Virus record (IMG/VR): IMGVR_UViG_3300033145_001018
Coordinates: 1-42,312 of that record
From: a virus
DNA: 42,312 nucleotides
Reading direction: 5' to 3' (one strand)
Shown: positions 1 through 36,895 of the stretch, in pieces
Layout of the letters: every line of letters starts with the position of its first letter
How positions within the stretch are numbered: the first letter of the stretch is position 1
The notes under the pieces: model-generated
The model's database searches: none
Told to the model about the DNA's origin: nothing
What the model saw: only the letters and a program-made list of their open reading frames with translations
Position numbers and translations under genes: made by a program

Positions 1-103
1 TTCAGCCCGTGCCACTTCAATGGCCAGTCCTGTAAATAGCTTCCTTAGATTTGATCCCGGTATATTCTTGGCGCGAAAAAACCTGTCAGCACGAAGGTAA
101 TTA
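1..103. repeat. Terminal direct repeat, left copy
   Basis: Bases 1-103 are identical to 42210-42312. Joining the two ends keeps a minus-strand gene open (start 276, stop 42177-42179), so the contig closes into a circle of about 42,209 bp. The repeat may be an assembler k-mer overlap on a circular or circularly permuted genome. A real short terminal repeat is possible but less likely, because base 1 is exactly the edge of another repeat (1-114 against 21175-21288), where an assembly graph would branch. Confidence 0.95.
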
Positions 104-114
104 ATCGTGGTTTG
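1..114 (-). repeat. 114-bp inverted repeat, copy in the early operon
   Basis: The reverse complement of 1-114 is identical to 21175-21288 inside the DUF2313-type tail gene. Base 115 mismatches and about nine further bases match, so homology runs to about 124 bp. Both copies are read in the same frame, encoding NYLRADRFFRAK through AIEVARAE. The PGSNLRKL segment looks native to the tail family, so this copy is probably the acquired one. See the findings for recombination and assembly readings. Confidence 0.95.
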
Positions 115-276
115 GGTTTCATCTTCGATTTCAATCATCACATCAGCTATATCAAGCTTCTTCTCATCTTTGTCGTAGAATGCTGGATCGTCGATCTGGT
201 CTCTTTTAATGCCCCTTTTTACGATCGCGTCTTTGATAAGTTCTTCAATTTCTATTCTGTCAAGTTGTATAAACAT
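1..276 (-). CDS. Chimeric small phage protein, N-terminal 92 codons (gene crosses the contig join)
   Basis: The start ATG (274-276) overlaps the stop of the zinc-ribbon gene as TAATG. The gene reads leftward to base 1 and continues from 42209 to a TGA at 42177-42179, giving 102 residues. Residues 1 to about 52 are acidic and helical (MFIQLDRIEIEELIKDA...) and unlike anything I recognise. From about residue 53 the sequence is an exact copy of residues 12-49 of the tail protein at 21142, followed by a unique tail GILQEIEDRI. The stop overlaps the next start as ATGA, so it looks like a working member of the leftward operon. Function is unknown. A chimeric assembly at the repeat must be excluded before the C-terminus is trusted. 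Confidence 0.75.
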   Translation of the reverse strand, partial: MFIQLDRIEIEELIKDAIVKRGIKRDQIDDPAFYDKDEKKLDIADVMIEIEDETQTTINYLRADRFFRAKNIPGSNLRKLFTGLAIEVARAE

Positions 277-17519: not shown

Positions 17520-18605
17520 ATGATAATAATGGAAATAAACGGCATAAGATACCAAGGATTCACATCGGCGAATGTTACAAAATCCATGATAAATGTTGCC
17601 GACTCCTTTATCTTTCAATCAACAAGCGACGTAGTTAATTTACAAGATATTTATCCTATCTTAAATATTTCTGAGGTTGATATCTATATTGATACAAATA
17701 AAATACTAACCGGGCACGTTGACGTTATTAATCCATACTGGGATAATGACCGCCATTCCATAGAATCAATGGGAAGATCCAAAACCGCGATATTAGTTGA
17801 TTCTAGCGTTTGGGAAACGAGAACGTTCAACCGGCCCGCAATCTTTGCCGCCATTGCTAATAAGGTCGTTTCTGATCTTGGGGCAGATATACGAGTAATT
17901 AATAAGTTTGGGATAATTAAAATCTTCGACAAAGAGATAAGCGCACATCCTGGTGAAAAGGCCTTTGAATTTCTGGAAAGATTGGCCAGGGAAAGGCAAA
18001 TACTATTAACCACGGATGTTTTTGGTAATTTGGTTCTAACTAGGTCTAGCACTGACAGAATAGACACTATCCTACTTCACCAGAAAAGAAATTTAGAGAA
18101 CAACGTCCTGGGTGGAGCGATGTCTTACGATTTCACAAAAAGATATCGAGAATACAAAATCTTGGGCCAATCGACACCTGGTTCTTTCTTTTCTAGTGAA
18201 TCACAAGCCAGCATCAACGGACATGCAACCGACAAGGATGCGTTGGAATTTAAAAAGCTCGCCATGGTAGCCGACCAGGAAATGGATCTTGAGACATCGA
18301 ACAATTATGCAAAATGGGAATCAAACATCCGAAGAGCAAATTCACAGTCTTACAACTGCCGAGTTCAAGGGCATTACCATAAAGATGGGTTGTGGGATAC
18401 GAATGTTTTAACCAGAGTGGTTGATGAATATTCTGCACTTGATACTGACATGCTTATAAAAGAGATAACATTTCTTGAAAGCTCCCATGGTTCATTTACT
18501 GACATGATTCTAGTTCCACCGGATGCCTTCACTTTAGAGTTGGAGAGATCTCTCTTTGATACAAAAAAAGACGATATTGGGGATGGTTTCTATGCAATTA
18601 CATAA
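17520..18605 (+). CDS. Baseplate hub protein, Mu gpP / T4 gp27-like
   Basis: This 361-residue protein starts EINGIRYQGFTSANVTKSMINVADSFIFQST, the usual beginning of the gpP/gpD family, with ILTGHVDVINPYWDNDRHSIESMGRSKTAILVDSS then EKAFEFLERLARERQILLTTDVFGNLVLTRSS. This is the hub fold that supports the spike. A second ATG at 17529 is possible. It follows gpN and precedes the spike gene, the order seen in Mu. Confidence 0.92.
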   Translation: MIIMEINGIRYQGFTSANVTKSMINVADSFIFQSTSDVVNLQDIYPILNISEVDIYIDTNKILTGHVDVINPYWDNDRHSIESMGRSKTAILVDSSVWETRTFNRPAIFAAIANKVVSDLGADIRVINKFGIIKIFDKEISAHPGEKAFEFLERLARERQILLTTDVFGNLVLTRSSTDRIDTILLHQKRNLENNVLGGAMSYDFTKRYREYKILGQSTPGSFFSSESQASINGHATDKDALEFKKLAMVADQEMDLETSNNYAKWESNIRRANSQSYNCRVQGHYHKDGLWDTNVLTRVVDEYSALDTDMLIKEITFLESSHGSFTDMILVPPDAFTLELERSLFDTKKDDIGDGFYAIT

Positions 18606-19128
18606 TTTGATTAAAAATCTAATTAAGAGGGCGTTGATAACCGCTGATAGAACAGACGAATTTGGTCAATGTAGCTATTATGGATTACCGAAGAAATACC
18701 AGGCGATGTATCCATATGGTACTTATGCCATACCAAAGGCATCCGACAAGCCGATTGCTTTGATTCTGAACGTTGGGGCATCGGAATCAAACCAAGTTGG
18801 CATCGAGAATGACACAAAGAAGTATCCCGTAGGTGGTGCAAGCGGGGATGCATTCCTCTATAGCCCAGTTAGCGGGTCAATGTTTCGTGCTCAGGGCAAT
18901 GGCAAAGTGGCCATCGGAAATAAAACAACTGAATTATTGCAGAAAATTGTTGATGAATTATCGGAGATGTCAGATACATTAGATGGGATTGTCGCACATA
19001 CCCATACGGCAATCGGGATCGGGATACCTACAAGCCCGCCATTAAACGCTGCCGCTTTCACTGCAATCAAAGTCAAGGTCAATGCGATCAAAACCTTGAT
19101 TGATGCACTAAAAGGTACGATAATATGA
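18592..19128 (+). CDS. Baseplate spike protein, Mu gp45 / gpV-like
   Basis: This 178-residue protein starts at ATG 18592, which GGGGATGG precedes; it overlaps the hub gene by 14 bases. LIKRALITADRTDEFGQCSYYGLPKKYQAMYPYGTYAIPKASDKPIALIL is the OB-fold part of gp45-type spikes. The C-terminal segment has HTHTA (an HxH pair at about residues 141-143) and IGIGIPTSPPLNAAAFTAIKVKV, consistent with a short beta-helical tip that can bind metal. Confidence 0.9.
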   Translation: MQLHNLIKNLIKRALITADRTDEFGQCSYYGLPKKYQAMYPYGTYAIPKASDKPIALILNVGASESNQVGIENDTKKYPVGGASGDAFLYSPVSGSMFRAQGNGKVAIGNKTTELLQKIVDELSEMSDTLDGIVAHTHTAIGIGIPTSPPLNAAAFTAIKVKVNAIKTLIDALKGTII

Positions 19129-19140
19129 CAAAGGGCAATA

Positions 19141-19587
19141 ATGGCTGACATATTACTCGAAAAAAATTCAAGTGGTTATTATGATATCAATTTCACCGAC
19201 GAAGGTGATTTTGTCACCACCGAGGGATTCGAAACAGCGATATTAATGTCCTTGCTGGGTGAAAAAAGAGCAAACGAAAGTGAAGTTGTTGAACCTCAAT
19301 TCAGGCGTGGCGATTGGTCAAACGAGCTGAATGATGTTCCTGATTACGAAGTAGGTTCTAAGCTATGGTTATTATATGTAGCAAGGGCCAATACAGAATC
19401 AATGAACTCGGGAATCGATTCCATAAAAGATGGTCTACAGTGGATGATTGATGATAATCTAATCAAGGATGCTAATGCGGAAGGTACAATATCATATCGT
19501 GGCATTACATTTAAAGCATTAGTTACACAAGAAAATAATAAAGTTGATAAATATTTGGTGGATGACTTTATAGCAACGGGAACCTAA
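19141..19587 (+). CDS. Baseplate wedge protein, Mu gp46 / T4 gp25-like
   Basis: This 148-residue protein has DFVTTEGFETAILMSLLGEKRANESEVVEPQFRRGDWSNELND, closely matching Mu gp46 (…dG.d...t.dgl.tav..sL.tdrra......p..r.GwWgd...). It would nucleate sheath assembly from the baseplate. It lies 1 bp before the J-type gene. Confidence 0.93.
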   Translation: MADILLEKNSSGYYDINFTDEGDFVTTEGFETAILMSLLGEKRANESEVVEPQFRRGDWSNELNDVPDYEVGSKLWLLYVARANTESMNSGIDSIKDGLQWMIDDNLIKDANAEGTISYRGITFKALVTQENNKVDKYLVDDFIATGT

Positions 19588-19588
19588 T

Positions 19589-21145
19589 ATGTCAGATTTG
19601 AATTTTCCATCAAGCAGAACTGAAGTAGCCAACAGGCTCAAGGCTGATGTTAAGGGCCAGCTTCCAGATTCGAATCCATTTTTAAGGAATTCATTTTTAC
19701 AAGCATTGATTTTTGGAATCGCTGGCAGGATATTCGATCTGTTCACATTGGCCAATCGTTTGTTGCTGCAATTATTTTGGGATACGGCAACGGGCGTGTA
19801 TCTAAATAGATGGACGGCAATATTTGGCCTTGAGAGAAATCCTGCAACGGAAGCAATCGGAAATATCACGGCAACTGGTATTGCTGGTACATCTATCCCG
19901 ATTGGATCTCAATTACAGGGAAGTGATGGCGAAACTTATGAAACACAGGGAACTGTCACGCTGGCAGAAAACCTAATTATTCTTACGTCGATAACTCAAG
20001 CCGCTGGCGTTGCACTCGCAATATCTCCAAGTGATCATGGTTATGCCGCAGGAAGAACAGTAACAATCGCCAATGCAAACGAATCTGAATATAATGGTGA
20101 TTTTGTTATTTTAACCACTCCAACTAGTAAAACTTTTACATATGCAATCGATCCCGGTGCGGCAAGCCCAGCGACAGGGGCTGTCACATCGTCAATGATT
20201 GTAGCTACATTGGGCCTTATATCAGTCAATGAAGGACAGGCAACAAATAGAGATAGCGGTGATCAATTAACTTTTACTAGTCCGATCGCTGGTGTTGACG
20301 ATAATGCCAATGCTCAATGGGATGGAATAACGGGTGGAACAGATCTCGAATCTGATACAGATTTTAGGGTTCGATTTCTTTTCAGGGTGCAGAATCCAGT
20401 TGCACTATTCAATGATCCGGCAATAATCAATCAGGCCAAAGAAGTATCCGGTGTTACTCGTGTATGGGTATTCGGAATAGATACCACTCAAGGAAACTTA
20501 AATGCTACGTCATTAACCCAACTTGGCAATGAGGTAGCAGTTTTTAATTTAGTTGCCCATGGTCTACAGGATGGTCAAAAAGTAACGGTAACTGGTGCCA
20601 ATGAAGCTGAATATAATGTGCCAGGCAAAAAGACCATAAGGATCGATGCCGATAATTTCGCATACGCGATAGCAGGAAATCCCGCAACGCCAGCAACAGG
20701 AACGCCAGTCGCAGCATATAGTCTTGTTGAGGAGGGTCAAGTATTAATTTATTTCGCACGCGATAATGATGCTAGTTCGGTGCCATCCGCTGCTGAAGTT
20801 GCTACCGTTAAGGCAAAGATTTTAGAAATCAAACCAGCGCATATTAGTGATGACGACGTTATTGTCCTTGCGTTCACACCCGTATCAACAAATTTCATAT
20901 TTAATTCTATAACCCCGGACACATCAACAATGAGAACGGCAGTCGAAGCCAATATTGAAGCATTCTTTGCAGACAAAGCGGAGCTTGGTGAAGATATTAC
21001 AGAGGATTCATACAGAGCAGCTATTGCTAATACTGTAGATCCCGAAACGAATCAAGCGTTAACTGGATTTGATTTGACTGCCCCGGCGGCTGACATAAGC
21101 GTTGAGAGGGGAGGATTGGCAACAGCAGGATCGGTGACATTTTGA
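19589..21145 (+). CDS. Baseplate J protein, Mu gp47-like, with two inserted beta domains
   Basis: This 518-residue protein is longer than a typical Mu gp47 (near 380). The J core is visible at both ends: VYLNRWTAIFGLERNPATEAIGNITATGIAGTSIPIGSQLQ, then GGTDLESDTDFRVRFLFRVQNP and GVTRVWVFG, and DDDVIVLAFTPVSTNFIFNSITPD. Two related domains of about 70 residues interrupt it, at about 131-201 and 304-378. Each has an HG turn, then VT[IV].[GN]ANE.EYN and F.YAI...PATG. They account for the extra length and probably stick out of the baseplate. Its TGA overlaps the next start as TTGA. Confidence 0.92.
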   Translation: MSDLNFPSSRTEVANRLKADVKGQLPDSNPFLRNSFLQALIFGIAGRIFDLFTLANRLLLQLFWDTATGVYLNRWTAIFGLERNPATEAIGNITATGIAGTSIPIGSQLQGSDGETYETQGTVTLAENLIILTSITQAAGVALAISPSDHGYAAGRTVTIANANESEYNGDFVILTTPTSKTFTYAIDPGAASPATGAVTSSMIVATLGLISVNEGQATNRDSGDQLTFTSPIAGVDDNANAQWDGITGGTDLESDTDFRVRFLFRVQNPVALFNDPAIINQAKEVSGVTRVWVFGIDTTQGNLNATSLTQLGNEVAVFNLVAHGLQDGQKVTVTGANEAEYNVPGKKTIRIDADNFAYAIAGNPATPATGTPVAAYSLVEEGQVLIYFARDNDASSVPSAAEVATVKAKILEIKPAHISDDDVIVLAFTPVSTNFIFNSITPDTSTMRTAVEANIEAFFADKAELGEDITEDSYRAAIANTVDPETNQALTGFDLTAPAADISVERGGLATAGSVTF

Positions 21146-21708
21146 CGATTAAGATTACCAACTCAGATGAAACTCAAACCACGATTAATTACCTTCGTGC
21201 TGACAGGTTTTTTCGCGCCAAGAATATACCGGGATCAAATCTAAGGAAGCTATTTACAGGACTGGCCATTGAAGTGGCACGGGCTGAATTTGATCCCAGG
21301 TTTACAGTAAAATTATTGGAAGAATGGGAAAAAGCACTTGGAATCCCTGATGATTGTATTCCCTTGCAAAAAGATATCGATGAACGAAGAAATAATGTTT
21401 TATTGAAATTGACAGCACTTGGAGTCAGCACCAAGGAAGGGTTTGAAGCACTTGGTGCAATTCTGGGATTCAATATCACGGTTTTGCCAGGCAAAGATTT
21501 CTTGGTATTTCCCTATACATTTCCTTTAATTCTGAATAATGTAGGTGCTCGATGGGTGATGTATGTTGAAGCACCGGCAGCGGTTGCAACTTCTCAATTT
21601 ACATACACATTTCCGTTTTTATTTGGAGAAGATACTACCAAGGTATTGGTAAACCTTTTTAAAAAGTTGGTACCATCTCCGGTACATGTTATATTTAATT
21701 TCGTATAG
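21142..21708 (+). CDS. Baseplate/tail protein, Mu gp48-like (DUF2313 / YmfQ)
   Basis: This 188-residue protein starts at TTG 21142, overlapping the J stop. DPRFTVKLLEEWEKALGIPDDCIP and KLTALGVSTKEGFEALGAILGFNITV are the signature of the gp48 family. Residues 12-49 (nucleotides 21175-21288) recur exactly in the minus-strand gene at the contig join. The stretch between AIEVARAE and DPRF is about five residues shorter than in family members I recall. The other copy carries GILQEIEDR at precisely this point. A small deletion here, or a local assembly error, should be considered. Confidence 0.88.
   Translation: MTIKITNSDETQTTINYLRADRFFRAKNIPGSNLRKLFTGLAIEVARAEFDPRFTVKLLEEWEKALGIPDDCIPLQKDIDERRNNVLLKLTALGVSTKEGFEALGAILGFNITVLPGKDFLVFPYTFPLILNNVGARWVMYVEAPAAVATSQFTYTFPFLFGEDTTKVLVNLFKKLVPSPVHVIFNFV
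21175..21288 (+). repeat. 114-bp inverted repeat, copy in the tail gene
   Basis: Identical to the reverse complement of 1-114. It begins at CAAACCACG and ends at GGGCTGAA, after which this copy reads TTTGATCC and the other GGTATCC. Because the two copies are inverted, homologous exchange would flip the 21 kb between them. In the reading given here both flanking operons stay intact, which supports the present orientation. Confidence 0.95.
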
Positions 21709-21717
21709 GAGTTTTTT

Positions 21718-23355
21718 ATGGATATTAGCACTAAGACCACGGGAAGCCAGCTAACAGCATCGGAATTTATGCAGGCAGTGACAGAGCTTGAGGCATTAAT
21801 CGAAAGTGCTGGTATAGCCCTTGCGGCAGGAACGCTTGATCAACTCAAGAAATCAGTTTCAGATTATTCAGCCGGTGGAAATTTCGGAACAGATAGCGGC
21901 ATTGCCGATGCTTATGTATTATCACCAATAGGAAGCAAAGAGGGCCAAACTTCCTATGCTGACGGTTTGCAGTGCAAATTTAAGGTTGGGGCAACCAACA
22001 CGGGAGCTTCAACAGTCAACGTTAACGGTCTTGGATTGAAGAATATTCTAGCGATAGATGATAGTGTATTGCTGGCAGGGTCTCTTGAAATTAATGATCT
22101 TGTAACAATAATTTATGATAGTGGTGCTGGATATTTCAGATTGATTGATTCAAAATTTCTCAGAAGTACACTGTCGCCGAACAAGATTCCACCCAACATA
22201 TTATTGACTAGTGCAAATTTTATCAATGTTACCGATTTATATGGATGGCACAATAACGGATCGGCTGATTATGATGATGGTGACTGGGTTGGCGCAAAAG
22301 CGTTAACCGAAAACGGAACAGGCTTGTCAACTTCATCAAACCAGCTTGGGCTTACTGCATTTTGTAATTTTAACGGTGTTGATGATTTTCTTAGCAGTAT
22401 AGATGCGGTATTTGATGGAACTGACTCATTCAGGTGCGGCGGATGGATCAGGCCAGACGATCAAACCGGAGAACAAAGTTTGATTTCAAAATATAATACG
22501 GCCACCACAAAGCGATCGTTCGATCTCAGATTAAGCACTACGTCTATTGACTTCGAAGTATGGTATGGAGACAACACATCGGTAACGCTATCCACTGTTC
22601 CATCTTTAGAGATTCTCGATGGTAATTATCACCATGTGGAAGGGATATACAATCAAACAGATAATTCTTTGAGTATTTCAGTCGATGGCAAGGTATCTGG
22701 ATATGTGATAAATGCAAACCTGGCGGCAAGACAAAACAGCGCGGATGCCGATCTTAATTTCGGAGCAAGGGCAAACGCAGCAACTGACCAGTTTTACGCT
22801 GGCGACCTTACCGAGTTTTATTATCAAGATTTGTCTGATGATACCTTGGCGTGGATTAACAATTCAAGAAAAGTTTACGCTGCCGGATCTGGAAAACTTT
22901 GCACAGAAGACATTAACGATGTAGTTAGAATATTGGATGGCCGGACATATATTAATGATTACATGATCTTTATATTGGCTACATATAATATTGAGACAGA
23001 CGGAACATCTAATTTAGCAACTGGTTATCAACTTCCAATAGTCGAAGATGGCTATTATGAACTATTAATATTTTTCAACGGTAGCCATGCCGATCCTGAC
23101 TCGCTAACGCAAAGTATTTATTACAAAGTACATGATGGTGCTGCCGACCTGGAAGGATCATTTGGATGGACATCTTTAGCGGCTGACGCAAACGCAGAGG
23201 AAATGCGTAATGTCGTATATCTTACAATTGCAGGTTACTTTATCAAAGGAACAGTTCTTTCATTGTATGCGGCATCAGATAATGGTGATGCCTGTGCATT
23301 GTCATATTCTGACGGTGTACGAGAGCCTTACATGAGACTAAAACAACTAAACTAG
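21718..23355 (+). CDS. Tail fibre protein with a LamG/concanavalin-like domain
   Basis: This 545-residue protein has an N-terminal helical and collar-like part (TASEFMQAVTELEALIESAGIAL, then GSKEGQTSYADGLQCKFKVGATNTGASTVNVNGLG, a repeat seen in phage fibres). Residues about 190-390 look like a LamG jelly roll: CNFNGVDDFLSS, SFRCGGWIRPDDQTGEQSLISKY, GNYHHVEGIYNQTDNSLSISVDGK. The C-terminus is a beta-rich domain. LamG-type folds bind sugars, so it is the best candidate for receptor recognition. It has AGGAG before its ATG. Confidence 0.82.
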   Translation: MDISTKTTGSQLTASEFMQAVTELEALIESAGIALAAGTLDQLKKSVSDYSAGGNFGTDSGIADAYVLSPIGSKEGQTSYADGLQCKFKVGATNTGASTVNVNGLGLKNILAIDDSVLLAGSLEINDLVTIIYDSGAGYFRLIDSKFLRSTLSPNKIPPNILLTSANFINVTDLYGWHNNGSADYDDGDWVGAKALTENGTGLSTSSNQLGLTAFCNFNGVDDFLSSIDAVFDGTDSFRCGGWIRPDDQTGEQSLISKYNTATTKRSFDLRLSTTSIDFEVWYGDNTSVTLSTVPSLEILDGNYHHVEGIYNQTDNSLSISVDGKVSGYVINANLAARQNSADADLNFGARANAATDQFYAGDLTEFYYQDLSDDTLAWINNSRKVYAAGSGKLCTEDINDVVRILDGRTYINDYMIFILATYNIETDGTSNLATGYQLPIVEDGYYELLIFFNGSHADPDSLTQSIYYKVHDGAADLEGSFGWTSLAADANAEEMRNVVYLTIAGYFIKGTVLSLYAASDNGDACALSYSDGVREPYMRLKQLN

Positions 23356-23363
23356 GGGCACAC

Positions 23364-23705
23364 ATGAAATATTTTGTAAATTTTGTAGACGGTAAAGTTA
23401 ATTGCTCATGGGAACGGAGCGCAGACAATGTTATTCACCCATCCTATATACCAGATGGTGACATCGTAGAGGTTACGCCGGATCAGTACGAAAACACTAG
23501 ATATCTGGTTTTGAAAGATGGGGTTGTTGAGCTTAATGGAAAATATCTTAAGATGAAAAGAAGGAAACGCTTAGACAAGTTAAAAAAGAGAGAAGAGAAA
23601 AAACGCGCAAAGGCAGACTGGCAAGCGATCAGATCGGAGCTTTCAGATGTCGATGAAATCGCCGATGTCGATGAAATATTAACGAACATAGATGACGAGG
23701 TTTAA
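23364..23705 (+). CDS. Hypothetical tail-region protein
   Basis: This 113-residue protein is made of an N-terminal beta part (KYFVNFVDGKVNCSWERSADN...DIVEVTPDQYENTRYLVLKDGVVELNGKYLK) and a very basic helix (MKRRKRLDKLKKREEKKRAKADW), ending in a small acidic duplication (DVDEIADVDEI). Layout and position after the fibre resemble short fibre-associated or fibre-assembly proteins. No family is recognised with certainty. Confidence 0.7.
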   Translation: MKYFVNFVDGKVNCSWERSADNVIHPSYIPDGDIVEVTPDQYENTRYLVLKDGVVELNGKYLKMKRRKRLDKLKKREEKKRAKADWQAIRSELSDVDEIADVDEILTNIDDEV

Positions 23706-23706
23706 T

Positions 23707-24012
23707 ATGGCATTACCAGTAGACGGGCAACAATTTAAAAATAGAATCGAAGAAGGTGAAATGGCATTTGGCGCAGTAACAGCTGGCTTTCTTCCTTTTG
23801 TAAATTTCAGCGATGATATTTTGTTTAATCATTTATCAATTCAATGCACATTCGATCAGCAGGTTGAGTTAAGATTTAATAATGTTGATACGATAACGAT
23901 TGAACCTAACGAGGCAGTCGCCATGGATGGTTTTGTTCACGGTTGGGAAATTGATATTAGACATTCTGGTGTTGCCCCGACAGTCGGATATCTGAAAACT
24001 CGATCATGGTAA
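23707..24012 (+). CDS. Hypothetical virion protein in the fibre block
   Basis: This 101-residue beta-rich protein starts at ATG 23707 with GAGG eight bases upstream; an in-frame ATG at 23692 lies inside the previous gene. LSIQCTFDQQVELRFNNVDTITIEPNEAVAMDGFVHGWEIDIRHSG reads like a small jelly-roll or decoration domain (ends with YLKTRSW). It sits one base after its neighbour in the tail-fibre operon, so a structural role is likely. Confidence 0.7.
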   Translation: MALPVDGQQFKNRIEEGEMAFGAVTAGFLPFVNFSDDILFNHLSIQCTFDQQVELRFNNVDTITIEPNEAVAMDGFVHGWEIDIRHSGVAPTVGYLKTRSW

Positions 24013-25705: not shown

Positions 25706-26092
25706 ATGAACATAAAGGAAAGTAATATTACCATAGCTAAATTTATGGGCTGTACAGATATAGAATGGAAAGTGCATGGAGATGGTGGCAATCATGTATT
25801 AATGGCAATCTGTCCAGTCGAAGCAGCCAGTATTACTCGCAGCTTTAGAAGTAATACTCTGTTAATGATAAAAAGATTTGACAGGTCACTTGATACCCTT
25901 GTTCATGTGTGGAAAAAACTAGAAGATTATGATTCTGGAGATTTCTTTTGTGAAAAAATGGAAGATGACACATATAGGGTTACAGTTAATTCCTTTGATA
26001 AAAAAGGAGAATGTAGAATGTCTGTTCACTACGGTAAAATAATCCAAGAAGCCGCCGCAATAGCAACAGCAACAGCAATAGAGGAATTATGA
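25706..26092 (+). CDS. Hypothetical protein, first gene of the recombination operon
   Basis: This 128-residue protein has an ATGGAG ribosome-binding site. NIKESNITIAKFMGCTDIEWKVHGDGGNHVLMAICPVEAASITRSFRSNTLLMIKRFDRSLDTLVHVWKKLE contains the IA.FMG segment often found in small phage proteins of unknown function (DUF551/IAF-type openings). Its stop overlaps the exonuclease start (ATGA), so it is co-expressed with the recombination genes. Confidence 0.75.
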   Translation: MNIKESNITIAKFMGCTDIEWKVHGDGGNHVLMAICPVEAASITRSFRSNTLLMIKRFDRSLDTLVHVWKKLEDYDSGDFFCEKMEDDTYRVTVNSFDKKGECRMSVHYGKIIQEAAAIATATAIEEL

Positions 26093-27087
26093 TCACATCG
26101 GAAACCCGTGGATTGATCTACGGTCTCGACAATGAAGAATACCACGACGACAGGCATTTCATATCATCGTCATGCGGAAAATTAATCCTGGAAAAAAGCC
26201 CTGCCGATTACAAGTATAAATACATCGACAAAAATCCTTCGAAAAGCACAGCTTCGAAATCAACTGGCTCGGCTTCGCATTCTCATTTGTTGGAAAATTT
26301 CAAGTTTTGGAATGAGTATTATGTGGGGCTTAGTAAACATACTTTCATTCCCGGTGCTCTTTATAAGGCTGAAGACATGAAAGAGTTATTGGGTGCATCT
26401 GGATTAAAAAAGAGCGGAAAAAAGGAAGATCTATTAAAAAGGATTAAAGATAATTTTTCAGGATCTTCTCGTGCTGGATCACTTCTTGAATCATGGAATG
26501 AATTATCTTCACGGCATGATCGGGCCAATTATGGCAAACTTTGCATATCCCCTGACCAAATGGAAATCATCGATGGTATAAATGATAGCATTGGTCGCAA
26601 TTCCAGAGCAATGGAGATCCTTGGCGCATCAAAAAAGGAAGTATCCATATTTGGTCAAGGCTCTATATATCCTGAATTATTGAAAAAGGGCAGATTTGAC
26701 ATCCTTCCCGATGATGGATTCCACGATTTTAAGACTGCAAAAATTGCCTCATTGGAATATTTTCAAAAGTCTGTTACTAATTTCAATTATGATCTACAGT
26801 TCGCCTGGTATGCAGATTTATATCGTGAGCACTTCGGTCGTTGGCCCAAGGAAATATGCGCGATCGTTGCCGAAACGGAACCGCCATATAATGTATCTGT
26901 ATTCGATGTGGATGAGGATATCATGTACTATGGCCAATGCAAATATGAGGATGCAATGGAGCGGATTGCCAATTGTATGAAATGGAATTTCTGGCCTGAC
27001 TATCAAGGATCTGATAAGAGCATTAAATTGAATTATAACGGTTGGCAATACCGCCAGCTTGAAGAACGATACGGAAGCATGGAGTAA
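26089..27087 (+). CDS. RecE-like PD-(D/E)XK exonuclease with an embedded SAP domain
   Basis: This 332-residue protein opens LDNEEYHDDRHFISSSCGKLILEKSPADYKYK, with a conserved His region SASHSHLLE at about 61-69, as in the DUF3799/RecE nuclease family. The active site is D204 (GRFDIL), D213-x-K215 (HDFKTAK) and Q237 (YDLQFAWY). Residues about 92-123, KAEDMKELLGASGLKKSGKKEDLLKRI, are a SAP DNA-binding helix pair, set in the loop where relatives have only a linker. It would resect duplex ends for the annealing protein at 27656. Confidence 0.85.
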   Translation: MITSETRGLIYGLDNEEYHDDRHFISSSCGKLILEKSPADYKYKYIDKNPSKSTASKSTGSASHSHLLENFKFWNEYYVGLSKHTFIPGALYKAEDMKELLGASGLKKSGKKEDLLKRIKDNFSGSSRAGSLLESWNELSSRHDRANYGKLCISPDQMEIIDGINDSIGRNSRAMEILGASKKEVSIFGQGSIYPELLKKGRFDILPDDGFHDFKTAKIASLEYFQKSVTNFNYDLQFAWYADLYREHFGRWPKEICAIVAETEPPYNVSVFDVDEDIMYYGQCKYEDAMERIANCMKWNFWPDYQGSDKSIKLNYNGWQYRQLEERYGSME

Positions 27088-27089
27088 CT

Positions 27090-27659
27090 ATGAGCTATGA
27101 CGATTATGACGAATATGAAGAGCGCGAGCCTGAAATAGTTGAAGGACTAGAGGACGCTATCAAGATCAGCACGGTAATCGATGTTGATGTGACAAGTATA
27201 GAAATTCGACTGCGCAAATATGTTGAAAAAGTTATCCTGTCAAAGCTTCAATCTATGATACAGACAGAAGTTGTTAAATGCATAACTGACTCCTATCAAT
27301 CAAAAGCAAGATTTAAAGATGCCATTGAAACGGTAATGAGAGAGAAATTCACGGAAACATATCCCGACGCCGTTGAAAATAAAATCAACGAGATGGAAAA
27401 GAAATTAAAAGAATTCTCGTTTGAGTGGGGAAGAGATTCATGGGGTGGAACAAAGGGCACTCCCGCCATGACAATAAAAGAAGCAGCAAAGAAGAGGGTT
27501 GAAGGCTATATCGAGAATGAGTTAGCCGAATCCGTCAAGATATCAAAGGAATATATCGAACAGTTTGCAAAAAATTATTTTGCCAATAATCTCTTCCGTG
27601 CTATGGGAATGATGGATAAGATGTTACCCCAGACAGAAAACATGGAGATTGAAAAATGA
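27090..27659 (+). CDS. Hypothetical coiled-coil protein between exonuclease and annealing protein
   Basis: This 189-residue acidic helical protein (YDDYDEYEEREPEIVEGLEDAIK, later IETVMREKFTETYPDAVENKINEMEKKLKEF) has a long amphipathic stretch and no catalytic motif that I see. It overlaps the next gene by ATGA. Its place inside a RecE/RecT-type cassette suggests an accessory or nuclease-inhibitor role, but that is position only. Confidence 0.7.
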   Translation: MSYDDYDEYEEREPEIVEGLEDAIKISTVIDVDVTSIEIRLRKYVEKVILSKLQSMIQTEVVKCITDSYQSKARFKDAIETVMREKFTETYPDAVENKINEMEKKLKEFSFEWGRDSWGGTKGTPAMTIKEAAKKRVEGYIENELAESVKISKEYIEQFAKNYFANNLFRAMGMMDKMLPQTENMEIEK

Positions 27660-28552
27660 ACGACGAAAACAAACAAGTAGCAGCATTTAATCCGAGGGAT
27701 ATCCAGGTTGGAAGCGGTGGGGTCATAACTCGCAACCTTGATGAGATGTGGGTTGTCGCATCGAAATTTTGGAAATCAAAAACGTTACCGACACATTATG
27801 ATTCAGCCGAAAAGGTATTTGCTGGTATGCAAGTCTGCCATGAGCTTGGACTTCCACTCATCACAGGCATGTCCAAGCTATATATCGTCAATGGTGTTCC
27901 GAATCTTTGGGGTGACATGCCATTGGCAATATGTAGGAATCGAGACATCCTTGCATACTTCGAAGAGTATCCCATAGACGAAAAAGGGAAAAGGATATCT
28001 GAGGCTAATGGAAACATCATGGCAGAATGCATTGGCTATGTTTGCAAGGCCCAGCGAAAGGGATCTGATATAGTCACGGAGCAATCATTCACCAAGCAGG
28101 ACGCGACGAGAGCGCAGTTGTTTGGTAAAAAGGGTGATCTTTACAAGAAATTTCCAAAGTCAATGTATAAGTACAAAGCAAGAGCACTTGTCCTGAAGGA
28201 AGTTGGTGCGGATGTGTTGGCAGGAATTGACATCTTGGAACATCGACATCATATCAATCCGGACATCACTCCGGAAAAAATCTTGAGAGTCGTCGAGAAT
28301 GAACAGATTGTGGATTTTACTGATGCTGAAAAAAGATTAAAAGATGCCAAGGACAATGATGAGCTTCGCGATATATATATTTCATTGACAAATGAAGAAC
28401 GCTCTCATTGTGAAAATCTGTCAAAAGAACTGATGGATGAATTTATGAAGGATATAACGCCAATGGACCCAATTGTCGATGACGATGGGCTTCCGGATGT
28501 TGGTCAATATATTGACGGTAAATGCGACACAAAAATTGACGAGACTCCTTAA
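27656..28552 (+). CDS. RecT-like single-strand annealing protein
   Basis: This 298-residue protein has GMQVCHELGLPLITGMSKLYIVNGVPNLWGDMPLAICRN, then a C-rich beta part, SFTKQDATRAQLFGKKGDLYKKFPKSMYKYKARALVLKEVGADVLAGI. This order (ING.p.lwGD.plal, then F...dA..A.lw.k......p..M...Ra....r......dvl.Gl) is that of a widespread phage RecT-type family. The last about 70 residues are acidic. Together with the nuclease at 26089 it makes a recombination pair for replication and repair of phage ends. Confidence 0.75.
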   Translation: MNDENKQVAAFNPRDIQVGSGGVITRNLDEMWVVASKFWKSKTLPTHYDSAEKVFAGMQVCHELGLPLITGMSKLYIVNGVPNLWGDMPLAICRNRDILAYFEEYPIDEKGKRISEANGNIMAECIGYVCKAQRKGSDIVTEQSFTKQDATRAQLFGKKGDLYKKFPKSMYKYKARALVLKEVGADVLAGIDILEHRHHINPDITPEKILRVVENEQIVDFTDAEKRLKDAKDNDELRDIYISLTNEERSHCENLSKELMDEFMKDITPMDPIVDDDGLPDVGQYIDGKCDTKIDETP

Positions 28553-29726: not shown

Positions 29727-30074
29727 ATGATTAATACACTGAAAGAACTAAGGAAAAAGACTATTGAAAAATATCGTATTGAAAAATCAGTACGTGATAT
29801 CAAAAAAGAAAATACCAAGTTAAGGGAAAAGTGTACCGAAGACAAAGAACATAATGCCCAAGGATTTCGGGAAGGGTGTTTTGAAGAGATATTTAAAGCT
29901 ATGCAGGGTGAGCACTATAATCCCTATTCATTTTTTGATGCATCAGAAGGTGCTGATCTGTGCGAGCATTGTGAAAAGTATATGAAAAATCGTGATGTCT
30001 TAATGGCGAACAGGGAGAAACTAGGGAAAATCAAAAGAGAAATAACTAATTATGCAAAAAAGGAACTGCTATGA
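29727..30074 (+). CDS. Hypothetical coiled-coil protein
   Basis: This 115-residue charged, mainly helical protein (LKELRKKTIEKYRIEKSVRDIKKENTKLREKC) has a CEHCEKYMKN motif at about 92-101 that may bind metal together with other cysteines. It has an ATGGAG site and its stop overlaps the start of the GT2-GT9 gene. No family is recognised. Confidence 0.75.
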   Translation: MINTLKELRKKTIEKYRIEKSVRDIKKENTKLREKCTEDKEHNAQGFREGCFEEIFKAMQGEHYNPYSFFDASEGADLCEHCEKYMKNRDVLMANREKLGKIKREITNYAKKELL

Positions 30075-31774
30075 AAATTGATTTTATTATCCCAACCTAC
30101 GGAATGAAAGGTAATGACCTAACATTGGCATGCGTGAAGACCATCAGAAAGCATATGGGTAATGACAATAAGATAATTATTATTGTTGATGGTAATGACC
30201 ATAATGTTTGTATTGACCTTGACTATAGACTTAGGGAATTTGTAAACACTTTTGGATTTTCAAAAAAAGACGAATGCAATGGATTTGCCAAAACGTGCAA
30301 TCTTGGAATGAGTTATTCGGATGCGGATGTAATGGTTCTGATCAACAACGATGTCCTATTTTTTGAAGATGTTCGGCCAGCGATAATTGAATCATTCAAT
30401 CACGACGATCAAATCGGAATTGTTGGCGCACGGCTTTATTATCCGAATGGAACAATTCAGCACGGCGGAATGGTGCGAGTTGATAAGCATGTTTTCTATC
30501 ATGACGATTGGCACAAAGACTCAGAGTCGGCATATAGTTCCAACTTGAAAAAATATATAATCGGTGTTACGGGTGCATTTTTCTGCATCAGTCGCAATTG
30601 CTATGAATCGATTGGCGAATTATCAACTGAGTATTTCAATGGATTCGAGGATACCGAATATTGTCTGAGAGCTTGGTCGAAAAATTTCGAAGTATTTTAC
30701 AATCCAGATATCAGAGCGATGCACATCGAGGGTGCTACCCGTGGAAAAAACGACATAGAAAAGCAATCGATTGATCCTGGAAATTTCAAAAAAGAAAAAG
30801 AAAGTGAACGAAAGTTCATTAAATATTTTGAGAGCGTAGATATTCACGAAATCGAAAGAACGATTGATTCCCTAAACGCCCCATTCAAATCGAAATGGAT
30901 GGAATATTACAACGAAGAGGGCATCGATCTTGGTATCCGTCGATCTGGTGCGATAGGTGATTGCGTTCTTGTTACTGGAATAATAGACTACATCGCGAAA
31001 AATTATCCATATATCGAGATCCATGTTTTAACCGGATGTCCTAAAGTATTTAAGGGGAATCCGAATATAAGACGCGTCACAAGTGATCCGGTAACATTTC
31101 GATGTGATGTTTTGATTGATCTCGACATGGAATATGAAAAATACCCCAACGTGAGCATTGCGGAATCATATTTCAACAAAATTTTTGGATCTAAAACAAA
31201 CACGCTTCCTATCCTTTATTCGGATGAACTTGTAAATTATCCGATCATTCCCAATGATGGTGAGAAAATATTTGCACTTCACATGGCAGTTAGCTGGCCG
31301 TCCAGAACTTTGAATATCGGGCGATGGAATGAAGTGATTAAGCATATATTGTCATTGGGTCATCAGATTTTAATTCTTGGAACTGATAACGATATGGGAT
31401 CAATGATTGATGATGATCAAATTAAAGACCTCAGAGGACAGACAACAATCATGGAATGCCATCAATTGATCAAACATTCCGATTGCTTCATTTCAACAGA
31501 CTCATCTTTGTTTCATGTAGCATCGGCAACGGACACGCCTATCATTGAAATTTTTAGCTGCGTATCACCTCATACCAGGATATCGAGAACCATAAATGTG
31601 AAAGCTGTCGTTCCCCCTGAAAATGTATGCCGATATAAATTAAGTGAAGAAAAAGAGGTTGTGACTTATCACGAATGTCAATTCGACGATGAGAGGCAAT
31701 TTGAATGCATTAAATCAATAACGGCTGAAAGTATAATCAAGCCCATTAACTATTTATTGGAGAATGAATTATGA
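30071..31774 (+). CDS. Bifunctional glycosyltransferase: GT2 plus GT9-like domain
   Basis: Of this 567-residue protein, residues 1 to about 260 are a GT2 domain: IDFIIPTYG, IIIIVDGND, DADVMVLINNDVLFF (the D-x-D equivalent), then a GAFFCISRNCYESIG and FNGFEDTEYCLRAW segment as in rhamnosyltransferase-type enzymes. Residues about 285-567 are heptosyltransferase-like (GT9): LGIRRSGAIGDCVLVTG, AVSWPSRTL, DLRGQTTIMECHQLIKHSDCFISTDSSLFHVASATDTPIIEIF. Two sugar transfers in one chain are expected, in the host cytoplasm. It overlaps genes at both ends and opens the glycan cluster. Confidence 0.9.
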   Translation: MKIDFIIPTYGMKGNDLTLACVKTIRKHMGNDNKIIIIVDGNDHNVCIDLDYRLREFVNTFGFSKKDECNGFAKTCNLGMSYSDADVMVLINNDVLFFEDVRPAIIESFNHDDQIGIVGARLYYPNGTIQHGGMVRVDKHVFYHDDWHKDSESAYSSNLKKYIIGVTGAFFCISRNCYESIGELSTEYFNGFEDTEYCLRAWSKNFEVFYNPDIRAMHIEGATRGKNDIEKQSIDPGNFKKEKESERKFIKYFESVDIHEIERTIDSLNAPFKSKWMEYYNEEGIDLGIRRSGAIGDCVLVTGIIDYIAKNYPYIEIHVLTGCPKVFKGNPNIRRVTSDPVTFRCDVLIDLDMEYEKYPNVSIAESYFNKIFGSKTNTLPILYSDELVNYPIIPNDGEKIFALHMAVSWPSRTLNIGRWNEVIKHILSLGHQILILGTDNDMGSMIDDDQIKDLRGQTTIMECHQLIKHSDCFISTDSSLFHVASATDTPIIEIFSCVSPHTRISRTINVKAVVPPENVCRYKLSEEKEVVTYHECQFDDERQFECIKSITAESIIKPINYLLENEL

Positions 31775-32778
31775 AAATATTATGTGTTTACCCCGACATG
31801 ATGGACGCGACAAGCTGGTATCGAGGTGCCGGTGTAATGGGAAGCTTGCATAAGCAAGGCGATGTCGATTGCATTGCTACTCAAGCAGTACACTGGACAG
31901 TGCTGAAGGGAATTGACGTCCTTTTTATGCAGCGACCATTTCTTGATGTGCATATTGAATGCATTAAGATAGCAAAAAATTTGAACATTCCGGTTTGGAT
32001 TGATTACGATGATCTGGTGACTGATATACCAAAGGGAAATCCCTTTTTAAAAGCGATCAAGCATCAATACAACATGACGAAAGATCACCTAAATAAAAAT
32101 ATAATCAAATGCTTGAATCTTTCGGATGCAGTAACGGTATCCACAAATGCACTTAGAGAAGCATTCAGGGAATATTCAAATCATATCGTAGTTGTCCATA
32201 ATGCCCACGATGATTATATGTTTCCGGCAGAGAGAAGATATCAAGGCGACCCTGACAATGTAATTCTTTGGCGTGGAAGCCAATCACACAAGAACGACCT
32301 GATTGATTATGAGCGTGAAATTAGAACATTGATATCAAAGCATAAAGATCATCGATTTTATTTCATGGGTTATAACCCAAAGATAATTACCAACAGGCAT
32401 TCAAATGCGACATACATCGAGCCGACTGATGTCTATCATTACTTCATGAAACTCAAAGAGCTAAGGCCCAAGGTTATTATTACTCCATTGAAAGATAATC
32501 CTTTCAACAGAGCAAAATCAAACATAGCAGCACTTGAAGCATCGTATTTTGGAGCTGTATGCATATCGCCCGAATTTCCAGAATGGAAATCTGTATCTAC
32601 GACATGTAAGAAGTCCGATTTTACTGAGATGGCATCACTTCTAATTGAAGATGAGGAAAAGCGAAAACTGTGTCGTGAATCATGTTGGGGTGAAATTGCA
32701 GAAATGCATTTATTGTCAGCAGAGAATTATCGTCGATATGAAATGTTAACAAAGATGAAAGGGGGAATCAATGTCTGA
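31771..32778 (+). CDS. Glycosyltransferase (GT-B, GT4-like)
   Basis: This 335-residue protein has an N-terminal Rossmann half (KILCVYPDMMDATSWYRG, DVLFMQRPF, NIPVWIDYDDLV, DAVTVSTNALREAF, VVVHNAHDDYMF) and a C-terminal half (ILWRGSQSHKNDLIDYE, HRFYFMGYNP, FNRAKSNIAALEASYFGAVCISPEF). The last segment matches the E-x-gA-x-g-.P-v nucleotide-sugar part of GT4-type enzymes encoded by other phages. ATGA overlaps link it to the GT2-GT9 gene and to the methyltransferase downstream. Confidence 0.85.
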   Translation: MKILCVYPDMMDATSWYRGAGVMGSLHKQGDVDCIATQAVHWTVLKGIDVLFMQRPFLDVHIECIKIAKNLNIPVWIDYDDLVTDIPKGNPFLKAIKHQYNMTKDHLNKNIIKCLNLSDAVTVSTNALREAFREYSNHIVVVHNAHDDYMFPAERRYQGDPDNVILWRGSQSHKNDLIDYEREIRTLISKHKDHRFYFMGYNPKIITNRHSNATYIEPTDVYHYFMKLKELRPKVIITPLKDNPFNRAKSNIAALEASYFGAVCISPEFPEWKSVSTTCKKSDFTEMASLLIEDEEKRKLCRESCWGEIAEMHLLSAENYRRYEMLTKMKGGINV

Positions 32779-33253
32779 ATCTGCAAAAATTTATCCATTA
32801 ATCAAAAAATATCTACATGGCAGAATCGTCGATATCGGATGCGGCGATCAAAAAATAGTGCCACAAGCGATTGGCGTTGATATTAGAAAAACCGATCCAA
32901 TTGATATCTTGATGGATTCAATTGATCGCGTTTATGATCTATATTCCATTGGAACATTGAGACATGCCGACATCGTGTTTGCTTCACATTTCCTTGAACA
33001 CATACTAAGTCCCGAAAAGTTCATTAACGAGTGTCATTTGATCCTGGCAGAGTCAGGAAAGTTAATCTTATATTTGCCATCTGCACAGCATTATGATAAT
33101 CGCAGCAATCCAGAACATTTTCATAGTTTCGAATATGAGGTTTTCATGAGGTGGTTCCATGAATTGTATAAAGACATGTTTGAAATTATCGAGCATGGTC
33201 CACATTATGGGGATGGGTGCTATAGCTTTTATATTGTTGCCATGAAGAAATGA
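32771..33253 (+). CDS. Class I SAM-dependent methyltransferase
   Basis: This 160-residue protein has motif I at 19-26 (IVDIGCGD), motif II AIGVDIRK, and a motif IV-V part DIVFASHFLEHILSPEKFINECHLILAESGKLILYLPS. This matches the small Methyltransf_11-like enzymes found next to glycosyltransferases, which usually methylate sugars. It overlaps the previous gene by eight bases. Confidence 0.85.
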   Translation: MSESAKIYPLIKKYLHGRIVDIGCGDQKIVPQAIGVDIRKTDPIDILMDSIDRVYDLYSIGTLRHADIVFASHFLEHILSPEKFINECHLILAESGKLILYLPSAQHYDNRSNPEHFHSFEYEVFMRWFHELYKDMFEIIEHGPHYGDGCYSFYIVAMKK

Positions 33254-33282
33254 TCATTAACAATAGGTTAAGGGGATGAGAG

Positions 33283-33849
33283 ATGAAAAGCGAGATAATA
33301 GAATTTCACAAATGCGGTGCGTGTGGGATAGTCCACAGAGACAAAGAGAGAGCCGACGATTGTTGTATCTGTATCTATTGCGGCAAACCCAAGGGTCACA
33401 CGATGGGCAACGCTGACTGTGAAGATTGCAGAATGAAGATGTGGGCAAAACGTGACCACGAAAGAATGGAAAAAAGGGAGCTTGTTGAATACGACGGAAC
33501 TCAAGTATTGAACAACGACAGCGATGGTTATTATTTCGATGATGACGACGTGTATTGCTATCTTGAAGATTTGGAGCTTGATGAGATGCCAGAGTTTCTT
33601 ATTGTCTGCACTTCGATGGCGGTAGATATCGACCCTGACGGAATACTTGAGAACGAGATGGAAAGTCATTATGAGGACGCCACTGACCACTTAGTAGACA
33701 TTGATGGGTTTAGAAAGTACATCAATGAATGGTGCAAGAAGCAAACACTTCAGTCATGGATAGGCGGGGGCAAAAAAGTAAGCGTTGCCCAGATTAGGAA
33801 ATTTCTAAAGATGGATGAGCCTACAAATAGAACAAAGAGTAGTAAATGA
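33283..33849 (+). CDS. Hypothetical protein with an N-terminal zinc-finger part
   Basis: This 188-residue protein has three CxxC-type pairs in the first 50 residues: CGAC, CCICIYCGK and CEDC. A histidine-rich basic helix follows (KRDHERMEKREL). The middle is very acidic (YFDDDDVYCYLEDLELDEMPE) and the end is basic with a possible helix-turn-helix (VSVAQIRKFLKMDEP). It looks like a DNA- or protein-binding adaptor. Its stop overlaps the HNH gene. Confidence 0.65.
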   Translation: MKSEIIEFHKCGACGIVHRDKERADDCCICIYCGKPKGHTMGNADCEDCRMKMWAKRDHERMEKRELVEYDGTQVLNNDSDGYYFDDDDVYCYLEDLELDEMPEFLIVCTSMAVDIDPDGILENEMESHYEDATDHLVDIDGFRKYINEWCKKQTLQSWIGGGKKVSVAQIRKFLKMDEPTNRTKSSK

Positions 33850-34373
33850 CATGGAAACCAGTGGAAGGATTTGAGGGACTTTACAAAATCAATCGAGATG
33901 GAACGATAATATCTCTGCCTCGGCATGGAACGAAAGGTGGCCCAATGAAATGGCAGAAGGACGGTCGTGGCTATTGGAATATCAAACTTTTTAAAAACGG
34001 ACGTGGGTATAATCTAAAAATCCATCGACTGAAAATGATCCATTTTTCAAAGAGGCCAGACAATTACAAAGACCTGGAAATAAATCATAAAAATGGAATA
34101 AAGACAGATCTCGATTATGATAATATGGAATGGGCGACACATGGACAGAACCTAAGACATGCATTCACTACGGGGTTAAGAGTGTTGCCCTTTGGTGAAA
34201 ATAACCATAATTCGAAATTAACAGACGAAAAAGTAATTGAAATATTAAGAGAGGTTCGAACGGGGTTAAAATCAGGAAGGCAAATTGCAAGAGAATTTGG
34301 ATTTGCTCAACACACAATACAAAGGATTGCTGCCGGAACAGGATGGAAGCATATAGATAGATCAAAAATATAG
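33846..34373 (+). CDS. HNH homing-type endonuclease (NUMOD4-HNH)
   Basis: This 175-residue protein has the NUMOD4 opening (WKPVEGFEGLYKINRDGTIISLP), an HNH core (IHRLKMIHF, LEINHKNGIKTDLDYDNMEWAT) and a C-terminal repeat plus helix-turn-helix (ENNHNSKLTDEKVIEILREV, SGRQIAREFGFAQHTIQRIAAG). Free-standing HNH enzymes spread by cutting alleles that lack them. It sits inside the glycan cluster and may have arrived with, or moved next to, its neighbours. Confidence 0.92.
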   Translation: MTWKPVEGFEGLYKINRDGTIISLPRHGTKGGPMKWQKDGRGYWNIKLFKNGRGYNLKIHRLKMIHFSKRPDNYKDLEINHKNGIKTDLDYDNMEWATHGQNLRHAFTTGLRVLPFGENNHNSKLTDEKVIEILREVRTGLKSGRQIAREFGFAQHTIQRIAAGTGWKHIDRSKI

Positions 34374-34380
34374 GAGCGTT

Positions 34381-34989
34381 ATGACACTATTAATCACGGG
34401 ACTACCAAGATCTGGAACATCGTTTTTGTTACAAATGATGAATGAAGAATGGAACAATTTCAATCCGAAAATATACACCAATTATCATCTAATCGAACCA
34501 GATGCGGATCTACTCTTTAACCTGAATGAGCCGCAAATATTATCACAGGCATTAAGACATGGAGATCACGCAACGCCGATCATGGATAAAATTAAAGAGC
34601 ATTATTCAGATTGTGAAGGCGAATTATTGTTGAAGTTGCCGCAGATGATAGCATGCAGCGCGGATACTCTGGAAATGAATTTCGAAAAGATAATCATTTG
34701 TTTTCGTCAAAGGGAAGGATGGGAGAAATCCGCTATTGAACATGGCATCGAGGGATATCTTGACGAGCGGCCAGAATGGTTGCCCGATCACGTTAAGACG
34801 GTTGCTGAGATATATAGTTATTTCTGGGCGCGTTGTCATTATATGATGCAAAGACTTTCTAGGATCACGGTCAAATATAATTTTTGTGATGATCAATCGC
34901 TTGATAGCGTTATGAAGTTTTTGGGGTATAATCGTGAAGGCGTGAAGCACTCAGATTTTGAATATTGGAGAGGGTCAAGACATGAATAG
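34381..34989 (+). CDS. Sulfotransferase family protein (PAPS-dependent)
   Basis: This 202-residue protein has the 5'-phosphosulfate loop at 7-14 (GLPRSGTS), the strongest mark of the family. A downstream segment KIIICFRQREGWEKSAIEHG places R109 and S117 where 3'-phosphate-binding Arg and Ser are expected. It would move sulfate from PAPS to a sugar or other hydroxyl. The APS kinase at 36383 makes that donor, so the two probably work together. It has an AGGAG site and 7-bp spacing from the HNH gene. Confidence 0.85.
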   Translation: MTLLITGLPRSGTSFLLQMMNEEWNNFNPKIYTNYHLIEPDADLLFNLNEPQILSQALRHGDHATPIMDKIKEHYSDCEGELLLKLPQMIACSADTLEMNFEKIIICFRQREGWEKSAIEHGIEGYLDERPEWLPDHVKTVAEIYSYFWARCHYMMQRLSRITVKYNFCDDQSLDSVMKFLGYNREGVKHSDFEYWRGSRHE

Positions 34990-35028
34990 CGCGTACGCGC
35001 ATTAACAAGATATTATGAGAGGTAAAAA

Positions 35029-35184
35029 ATGAAAGTAGAAGAATTAGTCAAAGAACTGTCAAAGATGAATCCAAATTCAGAGGTTATAATCCAGCATGAT
35101 GAACATGGTTGGCATGGCACCGATGAAGTCAGGGAAGTAAAAGACGGCAAGGAAGTCATGGTAAGTATCAACTGGCACGAATAA
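35029..35184 (+). CDS. Small acidic hypothetical protein
   Basis: This 51-residue protein (MKVEELVKELSKMNPNSEVIIQHDEHGWHGTDEV...) has AGAGGT upstream of ATG 35029. V.ELV..L....n.eV.i....... belongs to a very common small phage type (often DUF4926/YpjP-like 'L...p.d..V.....' proteins) without known function. The 109-bp gap after it (35185-35293) holds a GC-rich stretch with possible short stems and the ATAACAGG start element, but no gene. Confidence 0.65.
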   Translation: MKVEELVKELSKMNPNSEVIIQHDEHGWHGTDEVREVKDGKEVMVSINWHE

Positions 35185-35276
35185 CAATTCTCTGAGCGAT
35201 CAGGGTTTCTATGATAAACGGGGCCGGTTATTAAGTGAGGTTTTATACTGACACCGAAAGCCGGTCTTTGGCCGCA

Positions 35277-35297
35277 TAACAGGATATTATGCAATGA
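35277..35297 (+). promoter_or_regulatory. Translation-start element, second full copy
   Basis: ATAACAGGATATTATG, then C and AATGA, matches the element overlapping the start of the radical SAM gene (2212-2192, minus strand) over 16 consecutive bases plus AATGA. Here AGGA lies nine bases before the ATG at 35294. Confidence 0.4.
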
Positions 35298-35617
35298 ATG
35301 ACAAAACAGATAGCGAAAAAGATATAATATCAGGTAGAAGTTATTGGCGCGGACACTCTATAATTTGGTTAAAAAATGAGCAAAAATGGGTATTCGAAAA
35401 TGATCACTCAGACATTATGGCAAATGGTGGCGAAATTCGTCCATGTGTTAAATGCGGTAAGATTTTCAATGGTTCAAACAAGGGTAAGCCCGATGCCTGT
35501 ATTGGTACTTTACCTGGCGTTGATAATGCTTGTTGTGGTCATGGCATAATTAGCGATGCTTACATCAGGTTTACAAATGGTGTCGTTATTAAAAATTTTA
35601 CAATAGAGGTTTTATGA
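35294..35617 (+). CDS. Conserved phage zinc-binding protein of unknown function
   Basis: This 107-residue protein has CVKCGKIFNG and KPDACIGTLPGVDNACCGHGIISDAYIRFTNG. The P.pClG.LPGV..aCCGHG....Yi.f.nG pattern is one I associate with many phage and prophage proteins of unknown role. The cysteines suggest a zinc site. It overlaps the next gene by ATGA. Confidence 0.75.
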   Translation: MNDKTDSEKDIISGRSYWRGHSIIWLKNEQKWVFENDHSDIMANGGEIRPCVKCGKIFNGSNKGKPDACIGTLPGVDNACCGHGIISDAYIRFTNGVVIKNFTIEVL

Positions 35618-36892: not shown

Positions 36893-36895
36893 AAA

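Follow-up and report, generated by a model that had tools for sequence, protein, structure and literature searches.

Part of a Mu gp48-like tail gene is present a second time, inverted and in frame, in a small early gene of an assembled viral contig whose tail gene is nine codons short

Phage G-segment inversion and diversity-generating retroelements involve repeats that touch tail genes, and in templated inverted insertions, i.e., partial gene duplications with fusion, a distant segment is placed in inverted orientation at a short common word, giving a chimeric reading frame. The gene family of concern here is that of Mu gp48, the baseplate wedge protein 3 (PF10076; PMC11915804). On a smaller scale, mutations by template switching at quasipalindromes occur in E. 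coli; according to PMC7202029, yeast CYC1 and phage T4 rIIB provided the first examples. Such mutations arise at short inverted repeats and leave a more perfect one (PMC7202029, PMC8604942). Direct terminal repeats of odd length are also carried by circularised contigs from k-mer assemblies, where, according to the legend to Extended Data Fig. 3 of PMC8116208, the length is likely to be the assembler's k and the position of the break is random. We analyzed a stretch of 42,312 bases, namely positions 1 to 42,312 of the IMG/VR virus record IMGVR_UViG_3300033145_001018 (hereafter the window), in which part of a gp48-like gene recurs within a small early gene. No templated inverted insertion of this kind in a phage appeared among the titles and abstract openings of the papers listed in the literature search; unlike the known kind, this one spans 21 kb in a phage, and its donor lacks sequence that the copy appears to retain.

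A repeat search revealed two inverted arms of 124 nt, 1-124 (minus strand) and 21165-21288 (plus strand), that are 99% complementary with one mismatch. The exact part comprises 114 nt, positions 1-114 being the reverse complement of 21175-21288, and the sole mismatch, at 115/21174 (C/T on the coding strand), is followed by nine further matching bases (115-124 in the copy, a stretch that includes the GATGA common with the presumed target), just as the preliminary description of this DNA had stated. A chance origin is excluded, since 20 Markov-1 simulations, run at the circularised length with the base-to-base transition frequencies of the window, gave longest inverted repeats of 15-19 nt. Both copies are read in the same frame, which had also been claimed, and the exact repeat corresponds to codons 12-49 of the tail gene (counted from 21142). 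Its 38 codons show 0 differences at about 29 synonymous sites, and this lack of divergence supports a recent exchange, one of the explanations listed earlier.

The tail gene (21142-21708, plus strand) scored 45.1 bits against PF10076 (Phage_Mu_Gp48) in the Pfam scan, above the cut-off of 37.4, and matched phrog_203 (baseplate wedge) with an E value of 3.8e-21. It lies directly after a gpJ/gp47-like gene (19589-21145, PF04865), whose stop its start overlaps, and before a fibre-like gene, and the order gpJ - gp48 - fibre was found in 12/12 relatives' records where all three genes were matched (the fibre gene was unmatched in 3 further whole records, G023, G041 and G042). In the tail-gene relatives, it is the N-terminal part that aligns with the copied protein segment. 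The tail gene thus belongs with the Mu Gp48 baseplate-wedge proteins, and the segment is native to it, in line with the family assignment made earlier; the gene resembles Mu gp48 by Pfam, by PHROG and by its place between gpJ/gp47-like and fibre genes. Unlike that family, it is without nine residues of the N-terminal helix.

The second copy forms the end of a small gene on the minus strand that crosses the contig ends. On a circular molecule, it runs from its ATG at 276 to 1 (1-276 in the list of open reading frames) and then from 42209 to 42177, and the fused frame is open and encodes 102 aa, as expected from the in-frame fusion proposed before. After the repeat it has nine codons, GILQEIEDR (42183-42209), then ATA TGA, so that its last codons and stop, GILQEIEDRI plus TGA, occupy 42177-42209, right before a 103-nt overlap of the contig ends. 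Its start overlaps the stop of an upstream zinc-ribbon ORF (413-276, TAATG), and its stop overlaps the start at 42180 (ATGA) of the next early-operon gene (41989-42180, minus strand), which encodes 63 aa and has no assigned function. The small gene had no Pfam match at E 1 and one PHROG match, at E 0.13; its first part weakly matched phrog_29967 (E 0.17, residues 8-56 to 29-77 of 78), too weakly for use. Because relatives of the tail gene align through the segment, while the small gene has no Pfam match and its PHROG match is at chance level, the small gene is supported as the recipient, which had been its proposed role.

Relatives of the small gene were found neither in viral contigs, genome contigs and the records of the tail-gene relatives, nor in phage records (best E 7), and, no relative having been found, the empty site, i.e., a small gene without the segment, has never been observed in nature. 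A 30-base pattern from the repeat was absent from the viral contigs searched, and megablast of 18000-24000 against phage records gave no match, both sets being ones that may omit records near the window. A tblastn search (E 0.001) with seven early-strand proteins (109-276, 413-637, 588-764, 757-1014, 1011-1364, 2288-2518 and 41989-42180, the zinc-ribbon ORF not being among them) was negative in all 28 records or pieces, of which L017 forms part of another, G012. No small gene was reached through relatives of the terminase, the capsid or two radical-SAM genes. The latter encode radical-SAM-like proteins that flank the small gene on the same strand: that of 41012-41992 matched phrog_24834 (E 1.1e-106, function unknown) and had relatives at 58-64% in four IMG/VR contigs, and that of 1365-2231 had relatives at 55-67% in six contigs.

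The length of the tail gene was then compared with its family. A scan with the tail proteins of the window and of G012 yielded 56 IMG/VR relatives, up to 47% identical in the best segment and comprising 51 distinct protein strings. As a criterion of this work, not a curated one, we counted the residues between the conserved R that closes the copied segment and the W of LLxxWE. This spacing was 24 residues in 54/55 alignable IMG/VR relatives (L077, with too short an extracted frame, was set aside) and 22 in the remaining one, L082. The same spacing of 24 was found in 10/10 further homologues, namely nine from named phage records and G012, a set that contains the close pairs L034/L042 and L035/L038 and of which G012 also figures among the first relatives as L092 (L020 is the same gene as L092). 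In the window the spacing is 15, i.e., nine codons fewer, and 0/55 aligned relatives were so short. The alignment places the missing codons (27 nt net) at 21288-21289 on the plus strand, exactly at the edge of the exact repeat. At the corresponding place the small gene reads RAEGILQEIEDR, where the closest relatives read RAEGKQNEIICEHFP and others NAEGLIKQYQDEYAP.

Since both number and place agree exactly, we take GILQEIEDR as the counterpart of the missing codons, a correspondence that, judged from the sequences, is well supported, if short of proof. The copy thus seems to keep nine codons that the tail gene has lost, and the copied block would comprise about 151 nt (124 + 27), with a net loss of 27 nt from the donor. 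Accordingly, the claim of a 114-bp copied piece holds for the exact match, but not for the extent of the block, as the 114-nt limit is the edge of the tail-gene loss. AlphaFold2 predicted a helix over residues 33-57 in the relative L047 (mean pLDDT 85.2) and over residues 33-47 in the tail protein of the window (mean pLDDT 75.7; 64 over residues 41-50). The deletion falls in an otherwise near-invariant-length helix of a baseplate wedge protein, and so may be harmful.

The copy, the open fused frame and the nine-codon shortfall of the donor against its family are what any explanation has to cover. We regard as probable, with modest confidence, a real and recent structural mutation, that is, an inverted templated insertion into the small early gene together with a template-switch-like deletion in the donor. 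We infer a 53-codon ancestor and the following course of events: (i) from 21 kb away, some 151 nt that encode an N-terminal portion of the gp48-like protein would have been copied in inverted orientation; (ii) they would have been inserted at the 3' end of the 53-codon early gene, at the short common word (G)ATGA, most simply via a template switch or single-strand annealing during replication; and (iii) the donor gene would have lost nine codons net just past codon 49, either separately or in a linked step. When the flanks were joined in silico at the common ATGA, an intact 53-codon gene resulted, with a TAA that overlaps the next start, and the insert was 151 nt. The loss in the donor could stem from template switching at a quasipalindrome, which would have left the perfect 10-nt inverted repeat seen there (21231-21297, plus strand; arms 21231-21240 and 21288-21297), the right arm of which sits at the deletion site; the net 27 nt would be equally consistent with a somewhat larger deletion partly offset by a gain of a few bases. 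The window has 15 such repeats (arms of at least 9, loop of up to 80), this one included, and the DNA fold of 21225-21305 had a z of -3.87, with 0/200 shuffles equally stable. With its deletion in a perfect 10-nt arm, the site may be compared with quasipalindrome-associated mutations, from which it differs in its net loss of 27 nt; that the repeat became more perfect is, like the switch itself, putative. No direct repeat was seen at the deletion ends.

Short-homology annealing is plausible, since the window encodes a RecT-like annealing protein and a PDDEXK DUF3799 protein. The former (27656-28552, plus strand) narrowly misses the Pfam cut-off of 24, with 20.9 bits and E 0.00029. The region 26089-28552 holds the PDDEXK DUF3799 protein with a SAP domain, then 27090-27659, then the RecT-like protein, i.e., a RecET-like pair. 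What weighs against the proposed mutation is that two rare recent events are needed on one 151-nt stretch, together with the potential harm of the helix deletion, the lack of a direct repeat at its ends, the modest profile score of GILQEIEDR, the failure to find an empty site and the location of the contig ends inside the repeat. The fusion is most likely neutral and probably functionless. If the assembly is right, the locus presents a fresh phage gene chimera, with a sequence that still reveals the donor, the direction of copying, the boundaries and the damage to the donor. Such a chance to see how new C-termini may be acquired by small early phage genes would be rare.

Among the rival explanations, the one that survives best is an artefact of assembly or library, i.e., chimeric molecules or a wrong join, the true genome having a normal gp48 and/or a small gene free of the segment. 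We consider it possible, yet rather unlikely. It draws on the contig ends: the window closes with a 103-nt direct terminal repeat (42210-42312, minus strand; repeat search) that is identical to 1-103 and lies wholly within the copied segment, and contig base 1 falls exactly on the edge of the exact repeat and of the deletion. In the whole contigs of 15 relatives, terminal repeats of 127 nt were found four times and one of 114 nt once, ten contigs had no exact one, and none had one of 103 nt (0/15). Moreover, amplification chimeras are often inverted, and the tail gene is without what the right end of the contig seems to carry, a spacing so short being found in no relative. On the other hand, a mismatch followed by nine matching bases past the exact repeat would not be expected from a k-mer join, and the copy is right in strand and in both its entry and exit frames (which, by our estimate, chance would give about once in 18 cases), with a stop that overlaps the next start.

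The start of the contig at the repeat edge, taken together with the 103-nt overlap, is also what a k-mer assembler with a k of 103 would give if both junctions were present in the reads. A branch of the graph at base 1 would be expected if k were 103 (below 114) and the reads held both R/TTT (tail gene) and R/GGT (small gene). With the 27 nt retained in both true genes, the two would have a longer stretch in common and the graph would branch elsewhere than at base 1, so that the position of the branch, under this guessed k, favours both junctions being real. A collapsed assembly repeat, which the preliminary description had listed among its explanations, would fit poorly, since the start of the contig on the edge suggests that both junctions were in the assembly graph; ongoing gene conversion, another of those explanations, was not adopted. 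The odd length of the overlap is like that of contigs circularised in k-mer assemblies (PMC8116208); unlike there, the edge of an internal repeat, not a random unique position, marks the break, and the overlap contains nothing but repeat. As the 103-nt overlap consists entirely of repeat, it does not prove closure, and the closure of the circle is not independently proven. The practical lesson is that a phage genome should not be regarded as closed on the strength of an end overlap that consists only of an internal repeat.

It is very unlikely, in our judgment, that the fusion has been selected, such that an early-made N-terminal gp48 fragment hampers related phages in assembling their baseplates while a change in the phage's own gp48 protects it from poisoning. 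Such a role would agree with the copy seeming to keep the full helix, which the donor does not, and with its position in a tightly coupled operon, and a block of tail assembly by a prophage-coded protein, Tab, is known (PMC10884400), its target being the tape measure protein according to a section heading of that paper. However, with divergence near zero, no trace of selection is visible, searches for relatives of the fusion were negative, and an N-terminal fragment alone may not fold or bind. Still harder to credit, and extremely unlikely, is that capture and donor deletion form one adaptive unit, in which an early gp48 N-terminal decoy with the full wedge helix would poison related superinfecting phages while the phage's own shortened gp48 escapes; if true, this would be a self-made tail-assembly blocker and self-immunity from one gene.

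We also find it highly improbable that GILQEIEDRI is the small gene's own old C-terminus, that the short helix of the tail gene is natural variation and that only 114-124 nt were exchanged. The residues themselves allow this reading some room. Against a profile of 42 distinct 24-mers, GILQEIEDR scored 2.85 bits in the expected register, a score equalled by 206/11,796 9-mers of the window (about 1.7%; this null set may hold a few stop-free 9-mers from a wrong frame, 281-412), by 1/106 C-terminal 9-mers and by 4.6% of shuffles, whereas the relatives' own 9-mers, which were not left out of the profile, had a median of 10.4. The residue evidence, taken by itself, is therefore modest. Furthermore, no match of the Phage_Mu_Gp48 family extending beyond the copied segment was found in the small protein with Pfam, PHROG or our own ten-homologue profile, the last of which gave a weak match (0.8 bits, residues 74-93) that stops at residue 93, one residue past the repeat, and the relative L082 is itself 2 residues short. 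Against an old C-terminus stand the following observations: (i) the tail gene is short by nine codons, and just as many stand between the repeat and the last codon and stop of the small gene; (ii) the expected register scored highest among 16, and the leading G agrees with many relatives (17/42 distinct 24-mers have G at position 3); and (iii) the spacing in the tail gene of the window is shorter than in any of the 55 aligned relatives.

An inversion switch, in which site-specific or homologous recombination between the copies would invert 21 kb and swap the C-terminal parts of two proteins, seems scarcely credible. The two near-identical 124-nt arms are inverted and in the same frame, as a switch would have them, and an assembly graph with k below 114 could not separate the two isomers; against this, no invertase, integrase or reverse transcriptase was recognised among 57 Pfam-scanned proteins (some short ORFs lay outside the scan), nor was a recombinase gene near a candidate invertible segment, and the order gpJ - gp48 - fibre, kept in 12/12 records, means that the present isomer keeps the tail operon whole. 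The 21-kb inversion suggested earlier is possible in principle, as a side effect of homologous recombination by host or phage enzymes. The locus differs from G-segment systems, as its repeat holds no fibre gene sequence, and from diversity-generating retroelements, as no adenine-specific differences between template and variable copy exist (114/114 identical, the one outer mismatch being C/T). Exchange by a retroelement or an invertase was rejected, such enzymes not having been recognised, and so was antisense regulation between the copies, both being read in the same sense.

Exact inverted repeats of at least 25 nt were present in 2/15 relatives' contigs, G037 and G025. G037 (L113-L115) has pairs of 101 nt (13329 and 24234) and 83 nt (16357 and 27624), the former resembling, by eye, a duplicated tRNA gene with its flanks and the latter having no explanation. 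In G025 (L119), the contig end 1-144 is repeated, inverted, at 1065-1208, near the 3' end of a fibre-like gene, and may be either a contig-end artefact or an invertible fibre end. G012 (L022-L024) has a 2.5-kb terminal direct repeat (1-2516 and 52809-55324) with one base different. Elsewhere in the window, 33846-34373 encodes an HNH/NUMOD4 protein, probably a free-standing homing endonuclease, and 30071-37528 is a sugar and sulfur gene cluster with glycosyltransferases, methyltransferases, a sulfotransferase-like protein, a TylF-like methyltransferase and an adenylylsulphate kinase (36383-36892, E 1.9e-40).
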